Below, in pieces: positions 18,665-24,625 of a DNA stretch of 29,185 nucleotides (position 1 is the stretch's first letter; every line of letters starts with the position of its first letter). The position numbers and the translations under genes are program-made. The notes beneath the pieces were generated by a model, which made no database searches, had not been told where the DNA came from, and worked only from the letters and a program-made list of their open reading frames with translations. The DNA is from a virus, in IMG/VR virus record IMGVR_UViG_3300034407_000409, positions 1 through 29,185 of that record, one strand, 5' to 3'.

Positions 18665-21109
18665 TTAAACTTCCCTTGCTTTAATTTTTAATTGACCTCT
18701 TTTTCTAGAAACTGAAACCACTATGAAATCTTTACCTGACCAACTACCTCCAAAAGGTTCAATGGTCATGTTGCTAAATGATAAAAAATCACCTACATCA
18801 ATACCATAATAAATAGGATTTACAACATTAAAATTAACTAAATGCTTAACTCCTCCAAGAATATTATTATAATAAGTATAAAAATCATCATTGGGATTAC
18901 TAGAAGGACTACTAGCTGGAGCAGACACTAAAGCATTTAGCCTAATTTGTTTTTTGTTTTCTTTAGAATCTACGTTATAAGCTGAAATAGATGAAGAGTT
19001 ACTAGAGTTTACTTCAGAAACATACCCACTCGTAGCTGGATGTTTTTCATATTCTATGTCCATACTAGTAACAACTTTGTCAAAAGGTGTTAGAGATATA
19101 TCAATGCTAGAAATGTCTTCTTTAGTTAAAGTATGATTTGCAGTAATTGAATCAGGGATAAAAATATATTCATAATTTCCTTGGCCATTATACCTTCCTA
19201 TAAATCCTCCATTATACTGAAGTTCTTCTAAAACTTTTTTTAATAAAGTTGGTCTATTAATCCAATATCTTATGTCCCAATCTTTTATACTATTTATATT
19301 AGTTCCTGAACTCCAATTTTTAGGATTAGTTGATGAACTGTAAACAGAACCAAGTCTGTTTGTGAATTTTGTAAATCTTTGTAATAAATCTCTATGAGCT
19401 TCATGAATTTCAGTTATTGCATTACTACCAGCCCAACCATTATCGGTAAGTCCATTTGCACCAGAATAAACATATTCAATATCATCTAGGGTTTGATAAG
19501 CTACTGTTTTACCAGCTTTAGTTGTTTCTGCAAAATCTAACTGAGTTGCGGCTTCTATTGCTATGTCGTGTATTCTTACAAATCCACTTACTGAACATTC
19601 AATAGAACTACTTCTTACAAGCTTTACTGTTAGTTTAATTGTTTCTCCCCATCCATTTCCTGATGATAAATATTCATTTGAATTATCAAAAGCATCACTC
19701 AAATAAGAAACACTAGAAGTGTCAAGAGAACCTCCAGCGGTTTTATGAAACTGAGTTGTTGTTCCATTTGAACTTAAATCCCAATATCCTTTAATATCAG
19801 ACGCACCAAAACTTTCATCTATTAATTGTAATTTAATATTGCCTGAGCCTGAAGCTCCAGAAATAGTAAAACTACCAGTAATAACTAAATTAGTAAGTAT
19901 TAAGCTAGGATAACCAGTTAGTTGAGGTAGTGAATATTCAATACTAGCAGAATCATTAGGTACAAAAATTTCATCTACAGTACATCCTACATAAGTATTT
20001 GTATTGAGATAATCACCATCAAAAGCATTTCCAGTATTATTATCCCATGTAAGATTGTCTCCAGCGGTTTTACTAACAAATTCAACAACTTTATAGAGAC
20101 CTCTTTTTAATAAACTTTGGTCAAATCTAACTGCATACCCATCACCATAAGTTTCATTTTCTACATCTACAGTTCCGTAATTATCTTTATCGGTAGATAG
20201 TGGACTAAATGTATCTGTTGATTTTTCATAGTAATGAGGAAAAGCATTTGCACTTGTGCTTCTTGTTCCAGTCAAAGAAAAAATAGTATTTCTTCTTCGC
20301 TCTTCTACTGGAATAGGGTAAAGTGTTTTTCTTTTCCTATAGTCATCTATGTCTGAGCCTGACCCAAAAGTAACACTATTTGAATTAGGTGTATAATCTC
20401 CATAGGCGATAGGAAAATAATTATCCTTACTTGTTTTTGTCTGTGGAATTTCCACTCCATCTGAAGGGTCTCTAGAGACAATAGACAACCTAATAGAATC
20501 ATTGTCATGACTAATATCTTGAAGTTTACCATTATAAACTAACAAACTATTAAACTTTAATGTGACATCATTAGGGACTATATATATTAAACACTTTCTA
20601 TTAATATAAGTTCTAGTCCCTCCAAATAATTCTTTACTAAAAGGACTTCCTTGATAATCAAAGTTGGATATAGAAATAGAGATATTCCCAGTTTTTGATG
20701 TAGATTTTTCTAAATCAATTGATTCTCTTATACTAGGTTCAGAGATTATTACTCCATTACTATAATCACCTTCAAAAGTTGTATCTGCAAAAGATATACA
20801 TTTAAAATTATCATGATAAATTGTTTCTCCTGAATTAGTATCACCACTAGGAGTTTTATTTATACCTCTAACAACTGTAAGAGTGTTAGAGCTAACTGAA
20901 CTAACTTTCATTCTTTCATTATCTATAAAAATAAAATCACCACTAGCGAATTTACTTCCATCCGATACATCTACTCCAGTTTCTGTATCGTTTAGGACTT
21001 CCGTTAAAGTTGCTCCTGAATCTGTAATTCCTTTATCGTAACCTAAAAGAACTACCCAATTTTCTATAATATTAGGTCTTTTAAATGATTCTGGTAGACT
21101 TAAACTCAT
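18665..21109 (-). CDS. Large tail-tip / hub-like structural protein
   Basis: An 814-residue protein, the longest complete gene in the window. Residues of about 20-100 include a short beta segment (GVDVSDGSKFASGDFIFID, TLTVVRGINKT) of a type seen in phage tail proteins. Residues 115-240 (FEGDYSNGVIISEPSIRESI, GNISISISNFDYQGSPFS, LLVYNGKLQDIS) have the look of an N-terminal tail-hub sandwich. The C-terminal part from about 600 (LLKKVLEELQYNGGFIGRYNGQGNYEYIF and HLVNFNVV) could be a second hub-like domain. It follows the tape measure gene directly (ATGA overlap), the usual place for distal tail and tail-associated proteins. The exact role is inferred from size and order. Confidence 0.65.
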   Translation of the reverse strand: MSLSLPESFKRPNIIENWVVLLGYDKGITDSGATLTEVLNDTETGVDVSDGSKFASGDFIFIDNERMKVSSVSSNTLTVVRGINKTPSGDTNSGETIYHDNFKCISFADTTFEGDYSNGVIISEPSIRESIDLEKSTSKTGNISISISNFDYQGSPFSKELFGGTRTYINRKCLIYIVPNDVTLKFNSLLVYNGKLQDISHDNDSIRLSIVSRDPSDGVEIPQTKTSKDNYFPIAYGDYTPNSNSVTFGSGSDIDDYRKRKTLYPIPVEERRRNTIFSLTGTRSTSANAFPHYYEKSTDTFSPLSTDKDNYGTVDVENETYGDGYAVRFDQSLLKRGLYKVVEFVSKTAGDNLTWDNNTGNAFDGDYLNTNTYVGCTVDEIFVPNDSASIEYSLPQLTGYPSLILTNLVITGSFTISGASGSGNIKLQLIDESFGASDIKGYWDLSSNGTTTQFHKTAGGSLDTSSVSYLSDAFDNSNEYLSSGNGWGETIKLTVKLVRSSSIECSVSGFVRIHDIAIEAATQLDFAETTKAGKTVAYQTLDDIEYVYSGANGLTDNGWAGSNAITEIHEAHRDLLQRFTKFTNRLGSVYSSSTNPKNWSSGTNINSIKDWDIRYWINRPTLLKKVLEELQYNGGFIGRYNGQGNYEYIFIPDSITANHTLTKEDISSIDISLTPFDKVVTSMDIEYEKHPATSGYVSEVNSSNSSSISAYNVDSKENKKQIRLNALVSAPASSPSSNPNDDFYTYYNNILGGVKHLVNFNVVNPIYYGIDVGDFLSFSNMTIEPFGGSWSGKDFIVVSVSRKRGQLKIKAREV

Positions 21110-22869
21110 GCTAGGTTTATACCTCTTTGTATTTCAGGAATAAGTGTATCTCTTACAAATTCTTCTGTACCTAATACATTTCCTTGAATATTAACTGTTG
21201 TTCCCATATTTGATGCTAAATTTTGTTGTTGTGCTTGGTTTAAAATAACTTCGCCAGGCGTTAACATGGCTGGTACTGTATCGCCTTGACCTCTATCTGT
21301 GCCAGGCACTACACCACCATCAGCAAACCCAACTCTTTGAATCGCACTTCCCATTAATGAACCAAAAGCCGCCCCACCAGCTAAAGCCAAAGGTGCTGAG
21401 ATAATAGGAGGTAGAGGAGTAGTTTCTAGAAACTTTCTTATATAGTGTGCAACTGATTTCATTATTTCAGAACTTACAACCTGAGTTGCTACTTGTTTAG
21501 CCGCTTCTCCTGAGGCAAATAAAGCATCAGATGTACTTGTAATAGCCGCACCAGCTTGGACACTTGAGGCAGTTGCGACATCTATATTTTTCTTAAAGTC
21601 TTTAAATACTGAAGATGATTCTGTTGTTTGTGTTTTTACTAATCCTAATTTTTTAGCTAATTCAGGATATTGTTGAATTAACCTAGCGTTCATTATAGAT
21701 TCTTTTTCTTGTTGTTCTACTTGTTGTTGTTTTGTTTGAATAAAAGAGTTATAGCTTTCTTCTAAAACATTAAATAAATCTACTTCTTCAGTTCTTAAAT
21801 CTTTTGTAATAAGTATTTTTTCATTTAATTTTTCTTTTATCTCATCTTCAAAACCCATCATTTTATTTAATTCTTTATATCTATCAATCAATGCTTTTAA
21901 TTTTTCATCTTCTTCTTTTGTTGAATCAGTAACCGCCTTCATTCCCTCATTTGACTTTTCCATTTGATTAATCATTTCTAATAATTCTTTTTGAGAGAAT
22001 TTTTGAATGGTTGTTTTAAACTTGTTTAACTCTATATCTGATTCAGGAACAATTTTTATAAATTTTCCTACTTCCTCTCCAAAATTTTTGAATCTTTTTA
22101 TGACTTTGGAAACCCCTTCGGCTAAAAATGTAATCCCTTCTGCGGTTTTAGTAACCATAGGGGATAAAAGACTTCCTATTGCTTCACCAGCGTCACCAAC
22201 TGCGTTGGTCATTTGTTCTAGTCCACCAGCCATAGTTTCTGCTGATGCTCGTGCAAGTCCACCAAATTGAGTTTCTAGCTCTCCTAAAATAACTTTTTGA
22301 GCAGATGCAACATCACCCATTTCAGTAAATTTTTTAATCTGTTCTTTTTGTGTTTCTGTTAATTGAACACCTACCCTAGATAATGCACCAATTCCAGCAA
22401 TAGGGTCATTTAATGCTTTACCTAACTGAACAGTAGAACTTTGTAAGTCTGTTCCCATAGCAGTAGACATATTAAGAATAGTCTCAGTTGCCTGAGGAAA
22501 TACATCTTCACCAACTTTGGTGAATGTAAGTAATAAACTTTGAGCCTCTAAAATAGCTTCATCTCCAAAAGTAGTGACTTGTTGAAGACTGTTAGCCATA
22601 TTTTTTAATTCATTTGCAGTTAATCCAGCTACACCAGCCGTAGATTTTAAAACTGCATTTAATTGAGCTTCTGCTTTTTCTTGTTGTCCAGCTAATCTTA
22701 TGACAGAACTAAAACCTGAAATAATACCTTGAGCGGCAAAAAATGCACCTCCAACCTTTAATGCAGAACTCCCTAAACTACTAAGTGAACCATTAACACC
22801 TTTTATTTTTCTTTCAGTATCCTTTGCATTTAGGACACCCATTCTTATAAATAAATCTTTAACCGCCAT
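21106..22869 (-). CDS. Tail tape measure protein
   Basis: A 587-residue protein from ATG 22869, chosen over 22884 because GAGG stands 5 nt ahead. The N-terminus has GVLNAKDTERKIKGVNGSL and an Ala/Gly-rich hydrophobic helix. Residues 60-220 are typical tape-measure sequence (LQSSTVQLGKALNDPIAGIGALSRVG). A coiled coil occupies about 260-410. Near the end are a hydrophobic segment (PLPPIISAPLALAGGAAFGS) and FADGGVVPG followed by GDTVPAMLTPGEVILN, a well-known C-terminal tape-measure signature. It sets tail length and is ejected with DNA; 587 residues would predict a short siphovirus tail of roughly 90 nm by the usual 0.15 nm per residue rule. Confidence 0.9.
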   Translation of the reverse strand: MAVKDLFIRMGVLNAKDTERKIKGVNGSLSSLGSSALKVGGAFFAAQGIISGFSSVIRLAGQQEKAEAQLNAVLKSTAGVAGLTANELKNMANSLQQVTTFGDEAILEAQSLLLTFTKVGEDVFPQATETILNMSTAMGTDLQSSTVQLGKALNDPIAGIGALSRVGVQLTETQKEQIKKFTEMGDVASAQKVILGELETQFGGLARASAETMAGGLEQMTNAVGDAGEAIGSLLSPMVTKTAEGITFLAEGVSKVIKRFKNFGEEVGKFIKIVPESDIELNKFKTTIQKFSQKELLEMINQMEKSNEGMKAVTDSTKEEDEKLKALIDRYKELNKMMGFEDEIKEKLNEKILITKDLRTEEVDLFNVLEESYNSFIQTKQQQVEQQEKESIMNARLIQQYPELAKKLGLVKTQTTESSSVFKDFKKNIDVATASSVQAGAAITSTSDALFASGEAAKQVATQVVSSEIMKSVAHYIRKFLETTPLPPIISAPLALAGGAAFGSLMGSAIQRVGFADGGVVPGTDRGQGDTVPAMLTPGEVILNQAQQQNLASNMGTTVNIQGNVLGTEEFVRDTLIPEIQRGINLA

Positions 22870-23257
22870 TTTTTCCTCTTTCATGTTTTGAAATATTATC
22901 TATTTCATTCTCAATTATTGCAAAACAATCTAACATCCAAACATCTGCACTATCTAAGTCTTTTGAAATTGGAATATTATATTTTTTTACAGAAAAGTAA
23001 TCAGAAATCATATCCCAACACCAGTCAGGTATTAATTGACTAGGGTCACAAAAAAAAGGTAATTGATAATATAAACTTTCCCCTATTTTATAATCTCTAT
23101 TGTTGCTTTCTTGTATTATAATATCTACCTCATCAAGTATATCTTTTTCAGTCTTAAAAGAAACTCTCTTTAAAGATACTGGCGACCGAGTGTCATAGGG
23201 GAGGTCATATTCAACTTTTGGTAATCCATAATTAGAAAACCAAACAGTCATCCTCAA
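22859..23257 (-). CDS. Tail assembly chaperone, T-like frameshift extension
   Basis: A 132-codon open frame starting with a TTG. It has no good independent start: the first ATG (23251) has GAGG touching it, with no spacing. The frame is exactly the -1 frame relative to the preceding chaperone gene downstream of a GGGAAAC slippery heptamer, so the main product is probably a fusion of 87 plus about 136 residues (223 in all), as in the lambda gpG-gpGT pair. The protein is aromatic-rich with YQLPFFCDPSQLIPDWCWDM. The stop overlaps the tape measure start by 11 nt. Confidence 0.65.
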   Translation of the reverse strand: MRMTVWFSNYGLPKVEYDLPYDTRSPVSLKRVSFKTEKDILDEVDIIIQESNNRDYKIGESLYYQLPFFCDPSQLIPDWCWDMISDYFSVKKYNIPISKDLDSADVWMLDCFAIIENEIDNISKHERGKNGG

Positions 23258-23529
23258 TCGCCAGTAAGGTTTCCCAAATCTAAACCCATGTAACTACTTA
23301 TGATAGAAGTTAAGACCTCATCTTCTTCTATTGCAGTTAAGTTACCTAGTTGCTCTTCAACTTTCTTATCATCTCCAAAGGCAAATAAAGCAAATTCATC
23401 ACCTAAATCATGTAATTGTTCTAAGTCTCCACTAGCGAAAACCTTTTTAACTTTTTTATACATTTCTCTTCTTTGCTTTCTTGTCATCTTGTTACAGTCG
23501 TATTCACCATGTTTTGTTGTTATTGTCAT
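23254..23529 (-). CDS. Tail assembly chaperone, G-like
   Basis: A 91-residue helical protein starting MTITTKHGEYDCNKMTRKQR. It lies between the tail tube and tape measure genes, the fixed location of tail assembly chaperones in long-tailed phages. At its end, codons TTG GGA AAC contain the slippery heptamer G GGA AAC, four codons and a stop before the end. The G form alone ends in NLTGD; a -1 shift would extend it into the next frame. GGGGAGG stands well before the ATG. Confidence 0.72.
   Translation of the reverse strand: MTITTKHGEYDCNKMTRKQRREMYKKVKKVFASGDLEQLHDLGDEFALFAFGDDKKVEEQLGNLTAIEEDEVLTSIISSYMGLDLGNLTGD
23269..23275 (-). promoter_or_regulatory. Slippery heptamer for -1 programmed ribosomal frameshift
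   Basis: GGGAAAC on the minus strand, placed in zero frame as G GGA AAC (X XXY YYZ form). A -1 shift leads through CCT TAC TGG CGA directly into the frame of the downstream T-like gene. Lambda uses GGGAAAG at the matching place. No strong stimulatory hairpin is obvious downstream. Confidence 0.75.
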
Positions 23530-23548
23530 TTTGACCTCCCCTTATTTT

Positions 23549-24625
23549 TTACCAACTTGTGATAGCTTCGTTCTTGAATACTTCTAACTTAAATGCTTCA
23601 TCATTACCATTTTTAACACATTCAAACTCAAGTGTGTGAAAAACACCACTTTCACTTAAATCCTGAGCTGGGTCACCAGTATATTGAATTTCAGCAGTTA
23701 TTTCCATCTCACCTTCTGCATCATTACCAGCTCCACAAATTAAATTTAATGTCATTGTGTCACCATCAAGAAAGTCTTGAATTACATTTGTACCAGCACT
23801 ATAATCAAATAAGTCATCATATTTAATTGTCATGCTACCAGTAATAGTATACTCAGGAAGTGCATATAATTCAGCATTTCCATTTGTGTCAAAACCTACT
23901 CTGTTTACACCATTAGCAATATTGAAAGTAAATGCTTTCATGATGAAAACTTGGTTAGCGTTTCCTTCTACATCTAGTGTCCTAGTATCAAAATCTAAAA
24001 CATTAAAATAAGTAGATTCAGGAGCAACCCAAGTTCCATCAAATGTCTGTTCTAAAACTGTTGATGTTGAAACTGGATTTGAAAATCCTGAAAAATAATT
24101 TCCACTTATAGAAACCATCCCATTATTTGCCGCTACATCACCTGAAATTGTTAGGTCTGAACAAACTACACCACAAACCTTAATCCCCTCACCAGCATTA
24201 GGATAATAGGCAAGATTAACACTATGAGGTAAACCACCTGAAATAGTACCTCCTATAGATGTTGAATTACTTGAACCATCAATCTCCATTTCATGTAATA
24301 TTGAACCACTTTGACTATTTTCCTGACCCACTAGCAAAGCGTGTTGAGCTAAGTTTCTAGGTGTTGCTAACATCTCAAAAGGCATGGTAATAGTTCCACC
24401 TCTTGTATTTGTTACAGTATCAGCGGCGTTCTTAACAGTTCCTCTACCACTTAACAACCTAGATTCTCTCATTATGTTAAAAGTAGGCTTTTGGACTTGC
24501 ACTACTCCTTGTGTTAAATACGCAATTGAATCTGCGCCATCGCTATCTAAACCAACCCCAAAAGATGTTTCTGCTTTTAAACCATACTTAACACCGCTAA
24601 CTGGGAGGACTCTTGTGTCAGCCAT
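23549..24625 (-). CDS. Major tail tube protein
   Basis: A 358-residue beta-rich protein starting MADTRVLPVSGVKYGLKAET, typical of tail tube proteins with a conserved start such as GVKYGLKAETSFG. Further phrases are RGGTITMPFEMLATP, YALPEYTITGSMTIKYDDL and an acidic end. It is followed by the chaperone pair and tape measure, the canonical order, and no sheath gene lies beside it. The length allows an extra C-terminal domain on the tube. AAGGAG precedes the ATG. It should be the second most abundant virion protein. Confidence 0.8.
   Translation of the reverse strand: MADTRVLPVSGVKYGLKAETSFGVGLDSDGADSIAYLTQGVVQVQKPTFNIMRESRLLSGRGTVKNAADTVTNTRGGTITMPFEMLATPRNLAQHALLVGQENSQSGSILHEMEIDGSSNSTSIGGTISGGLPHSVNLAYYPNAGEGIKVCGVVCSDLTISGDVAANNGMVSISGNYFSGFSNPVSTSTVLEQTFDGTWVAPESTYFNVLDFDTRTLDVEGNANQVFIMKAFTFNIANGVNRVGFDTNGNAELYALPEYTITGSMTIKYDDLFDYSAGTNVIQDFLDGDTMTLNLICGAGNDAEGEMEITAEIQYTGDPAQDLSESGVFHTLEFECVKNGNDEAFKLEVFKNEAITSW

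Follow-up and report, generated by a model that had tools for sequence, protein, structure and literature searches.

Two short reading frames lie between the tail tube and tape measure genes of an uncultivated, probably marine phage, and the question that this locus raises is whether they are translated only as separate proteins or whether a programmed -1 ribosomal frameshift joins them, as an earlier note had put forward. We analyzed the stretch of 29,185 bases that holds them, referred to here in its entirety as the window, together with relatives of the two genes in IMG/VR. It is very likely, judging from sequence comparison, that a programmed -1 ribosomal frameshift of the lambda G/GT type fuses the two tail-assembly genes. 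Four features bear on this reading, each shown by comparison of sequences: the phase and position of a slippery heptamer, the reading frame that follows it, selection at the RNA level on a downstream stem (S1), and gene order. As in lambda, where the order is V-G-T-H, the tail tube gene is followed by the G-like and T-like genes and then by the tape measure gene; a pair of small genes flanked by those for the major tail protein and the tape measure is the layout expected of lambda-type G/GT pairs. No tRNA was found in the window.

The 3' end of the G gene reads TTG GGA AAC CTT ACT GGC GAT TGA, which places the heptamer 19 nt before the stop and its AAC five codons from the end of the gene, in the phase that the earlier note had described. 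A -1 shift at this point does enter the frame of the next gene, which is free of stop codons from 23293, ahead of the heptamer, until it terminates at 22861-22859, and the predicted fusion has the 223 residues previously announced for it, comprising 87 G residues and 136 in the new frame, with the junction ...DLGN-PYWRLR. The window alone is nonetheless weak evidence for the site, because two further in-phase heptamers, GGGTTTA and TTTGGGA, lie nearby. Both are upstream of GGGAAAC and were set aside as not conserved, leaving GGGAAAC as the only in-phase heptamer of the window at a conserved position.

Table 1. Features of the frameshift locus and its surroundings, in window coordinates
Feature	Position	Strand	Remarks
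Virus record (window)	29,185 bases		Genes on minus strand
Tail tube protein (context)	23549..24625	-	Pfam Phage_tube_2, E = 1.1e-6
Gene G Shine-Dalgarno region AGGGGAGGTCA	23532..23542	-	Perfect 11-bp complement of the loop element
G-like tail assembly chaperone gene	23254..23529	-	91 aa, zero frame; ORF
Slippery heptamer GGGAAAC	23269..23275	-	Phase G_GGA_AAC; in-phase site in 67/67 + 3/3 loci
T-like extension after -1 shift	22859..23268	-	136 codons + stop; open frame
S1 5' arm GGCGATTGAG	23253..23262	-	6 nt after heptamer; pairing in the window extends outward to 23266
TTG, sole alternative start at the G stop	23255..23257	-	CTG in 8/57 tree rows
Zero-frame TGA stop of G	23254..23256	-	Inside 5' arm of S1; sequence
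Inner hairpin P2 5' arm GTTTGG	23240..23245	-	Two-sided changes U-A to C-G in alignment
Inner hairpin P2 3' arm CCAAAA	23216..23221	-	Alignment
Anti-Shine-Dalgarno element TGACCTCCCCT in S1 loop	23197..23207	-	Rare Leu codon CTC; complementary to G ribosome site
S1 3' arm CTCGGTCGCC	23181..23190	-	Extends outward to 23177
Tape measure protein (context)	21106..22884	-	phrog_27166, E = 9.6e-45; Pfam TMP_2

The family used for comparison numbers 67 loci: the window itself plus 66 relatives from IMG/VR that were retrieved by similarity to G or T. Of these relatives, 50 came from searching with the G protein and with a profile of G; because some peptide patterns in the G searches overlap the junction, a second search used a T profile from far downstream, which contributed 16 more loci through T alone. 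IMG/VR contigs are related and partly redundant, and several of the counts below are based on 58 distinct loci, or G genes. Relatives of the G protein are 51-95% identical, and identity in the T-like extension ranges from 39 to 88% across aligned relatives.

The earlier note had held that relatives devoid of a slippery site would speak against frameshifting. Instead, an in-phase X_XXY_YYZ heptamer stands at exactly -19 in 67 of the 67 loci, and heptamers occupy just 65 of 4916 other in-phase G positions (1.3%), against 58 of 58 at the site. The distinct G genes carry GGGAAAC (45), CCCTTTA (9), GGGAAAA (3) and AAAAAAG (1), so the conservation of GGGAAA(C/G) proposed as a check in that note holds for the slippery pattern, which is never lost, but not for its letters, given the members with GGGAAAA, CCCTTTA and AAAAAAG. 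In a 57-row tree from which the junction columns were left out, heptamer identity changes at least six times with no loss. The encoded residue pairs change along with the heptamer (GN, GK, PL, KK), while the preceding residue may be L, Q, E, T, V, S or M before GGA and T, S or D before CCT, the needed last base being present in every case. Where the site encodes asparagine the codon is AAC in 45 of 45 genes, compared with 130 of 621 elsewhere, although that C also begins the next codon of the -1 frame.

In the T frame, the starts available near the junction are limited to the two already pointed out, a TTG at 23257 that overlaps the G stop and an ATG at 23251 set directly against AGG. The explanation that T is a separate protein translated by coupling at the TTG (TTGA) with no frameshift is highly improbable in our assessment. 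Start/stop overlaps are common in coupled phage genes, and the TTG is found in 49 of the 57 tree rows, overlapping the stop; however, the remaining eight rows have CTG, no Shine-Dalgarno sequence precedes the TTG, and in one locus (L013) the next T start lies 64 codons inside T. Coupling also leaves unexplained a heptamer that is kept while its letters change, as well as the conservation of WR upstream of the TTG: the -1-frame peptide WRLR, partly upstream of the TTG, is invariant in 58 of 58 distinct loci. In complete loci the -1 frame continues past the G stop and, counted from the heptamer, spans 135-139 codons. Some free T could come from reinitiation, yet this too leaves the heptamer unexplained. 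Fusion through slippage of RNA polymerase instead of the ribosome deserves almost no credence, since the AAAAAAG locus (L077), with its run of six A's within TTTAAAAAAG, would suit such a process, but GGGAAAC and CCCTTTA offer runs of three only, which are too short for polymerase slippage. The comparison makes it very likely that a family without described protein relatives uses G/GT frameshifting; simple gene calling would then miss the fusion, as had been foreseen, and two-protein calls would be wrong here.

The first reading overlooked the stem downstream of the heptamer, and S1 is new relative to it. The stem comprises 10 bp in all 58 distinct loci (14 bp in the window), begins 6 nt after the heptamer and encloses a loop of 62 nt (65 in two loci), its arms following the patterns GGCG[AG][TC]TGAG and C[TC]C[AG][AG]TCGCC, which pair in all 58. 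At structure-stimulated -1 sites the RNA structure follows the heptamer at a distance of about 5-9 nt, a range that includes the 6 nt of S1. Folding was evaluated in windows beginning 12 nt past the heptamer start; those of 45 nt revealed nothing and those of 65 nt little, S1 appearing only at 90 nt, where the median z was -4.0 and values below -2 were obtained in 56 of 58 loci.

The 3' arm of S1 is coded in a single frame only, so codon choice there is informative. Its serine is encoded by TCG in 58 of 58 loci, against 10 of 454 (2.2%) elsewhere, and its arginine by CGG or CGA in 26 of 26, against 16 of 341 elsewhere. Pairing in S1 is kept in 94.5% of cells, compared with 31-46% in slid controls. 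Strict two-sided covariation is thin, because six of the ten pairs are invariant and the other four change mainly via G-U. When 2.9 million viral contigs were scanned for the stem pattern by itself, 70 contigs came back, of which 69 belong to the family; three of these are new loci, and this independent retrieval again recovered an in-phase heptamer in each. Matches on the reverse strand and in GC-rich sequence were judged to be due to chance. A slippery site and the long RNA stem just after it are kept in all 70 relatives examined. The three new loci (L163, L238, L241) form a divergent subfamily with GGGAAAT in phase, missed by the protein searches and found by the stem pattern only. Rfam holds no match to a described element, the single hit, mir-4904, being at chance level. 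Comparison of these sequences shows RNA-level selection acting on S1, which is an unusually well-conserved candidate stimulator for phage tail frameshifting.

It is unlikely, in our view, that the frameshift is real and S1 is not its stimulator, the stem serving some other purpose such as protection of the stop region or control of reinitiation. Such a role would fit a stem that holds the G stop and a loop with an anti-Shine-Dalgarno sequence in half of the family, but the spacer measures 6 nt in every locus, and with the heptamer in the P and A sites the stem lies at the mRNA entrance, as is usual for -1 stimulators. The loop raises a further possibility, in addition to the frameshift: that it pairs with the Shine-Dalgarno region of G in a long-range pseudoknot that limits new G initiation and couples it to the frequency with which ribosomes enter T. 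In the window the two elements match perfectly over 11 bp, and no position on the entire minus strand pairs better with the loop than the G Shine-Dalgarno (rank 1, -23.2 kcal/mol). CCTCCC is present in the stem loop of 29 of the 58 distinct loci, and the loop leucine is CTC in 29 of 39 cases, against 11 of 737 (1.5%) elsewhere. Because any CCUCC pairs with any Shine-Dalgarno, partners were permuted between loci; matched pairs outperformed permuted ones by 2.4 kcal/mol (0 of 20,000 permutations; p = 0.00015 in a subset of 13 lineages; kinship uncorrected), and the sister loci L006 and L007 preserve the pairing through a T:A to C:G exchange.

That generic affinity of CCUCC also counts against the pseudoknot, as do the presence of the element in just half of the distinct loci and the fact that the G ribosome site ranks first as partner in only about half of the CTCCC loci. 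We hold the pseudoknot to be plausible but somewhat short of probable because the flanking match is absent in several loci (L013, L036, L045, L051, L053) and the permutation test ignores kinship. The match between loop and Shine-Dalgarno could reflect either feedback control or a pseudoknot; ribosomes seldom cover the T region, so that a genuine pairing would tie the loop and the ribosome site into a pseudoknot. Rather doubtfully, we propose that the T region may carry an RNA device in which S1 both stimulates the frameshift and captures the G ribosome site about 330 nt upstream, a single long-range pseudoknot setting the amount of G and the fusion:G ratio. This makes for a testable link between frameshifting and initiation control, and is relevant to the way in which the chaperone ratio is set in phages. 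Another candidate partner of the loop, ATGGG just upstream of the heptamer, has good mean energy and was rejected as not locus-specific (p = 0.08). The second-best complement of the T-region loop, GGGGAGGTCA, lies at about 7407 on the minus strand (-21.8 kcal/mol), inside the ORF 8520-7159, and may be a chance match.

Returning to the G/GT frameshift, we infer that slippage occurs at the heptamer at some rate, that S1 stimulates it and that the products act in tail assembly. The majority of ribosomes would complete G and terminate at the UGA (23256-23254), while a minority would be paused on the heptamer by S1 at the mRNA entrance. Both tRNAs would then re-pair from GGA/AAC to GGG/AAA, bypassing the stop and yielding the 223-residue fusion. 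By analogy with lambda, unfused G would cover the tape measure, and tail tube subunits would be brought in by the fusion (PMC5009743). In E. coli, AAC in the A site slips less than AAG (PMC5009743), which counts against this reading, although efficiency in the phage's own host may differ.

The system is of a known kind, and its RNA elements are without description in the literature searched. The slippery heptamer of lambda is GGGAAAG. Of the likeness to lambda gpG/gpGT that the earlier note drew, gene position and order stand, whereas the heptamer differs, with C in place of G as its Z base, and there is no detectable protein relationship. The two systems share the -1 direction, a heptamer placed in phase close to where the first gene ends and the extension of its product at the C terminus by fusion (PMC5009743). 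This family differs from lambda in its conserved long-range stem with an anti-Shine-Dalgarno loop and in the members that use CCCTTTA, AAAAAAG or GGGAAAT. Rhodobacter phage RcCronus has a tape measure 46% identical over 192 residues and, at the same place, an annotated joined tail assembly chaperone CDS (gp11/gp12) with an in-phase GGGAAAC in ...DLGN-stop; unlike in the window, its heptamer abuts the stop, the extension is shorter and a simple helix search found no such stem.

GGGAAAC has also been reported in the G/GT genes of Caulobacter phage Colossus (PMC3556154), Burkholderia phage KL1 (PMC3483164) and the haloarchaeal virus HCTV-1 (PMC5009743), in each case as a prediction for a single phage; the KL1 prediction included a short stem-loop (PMC3483164), as opposed to the conserved long-range stem described here. 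The three-way-junction stimulator of IS911, which is branched, and the stem-loop of E. coli dnaX likewise place RNA structure just 3' of a bacterial -1 site (PMC5009743), but in different genes, whereas the stem in this family holds the stop codon and encloses 62-65 nt. The CCCTTTA of nine members is the heptamer of the CCCUUUA site of Giardiavirus, an RNA virus of a eukaryote, whose mechanism is doubted in PMC8230311 itself; no other CCCUUUA proposal was found in the literature searched.

The labels G-like and T-like were assigned from gene position and layout, as the two proteins have no counterpart in any named family or among PDB sequences and folds. Neither G nor T had a named match in Pfam, PHROGs or PDB sequence profiles, their AlphaFold models matched no PDB fold, and GTDB genomes and INPHARED phages contained no relatives of either; a viral fold search recovered one close unnamed relative of G, and chaperones only at E > 1. 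Known tail assembly chaperones of the G/GT type share little sequence (PMC5009743).

The family provides natural heptamer swaps between its own members, among GGGAAAC, GGGAAAA, GGGAAAT, CCCTTTA and AAAAAAG. The CCCTTTA loci (L008, L014, L019, L037, L040, L048, L049, L052 and L054) have it at the same position as GGGAAAC, and four of them (L040, L048, L052 and L054) also carry an overlapping second heptamer in phase, either TTTAAAG or TTTAAAC. Downstream of the junction, the tape measure ORF of the window offers two ATGs on the minus strand, one at 22884 and one at 22869; the latter is probably the true start, as it has AAGAGGAAAAA in front of it and overlaps the end of T.
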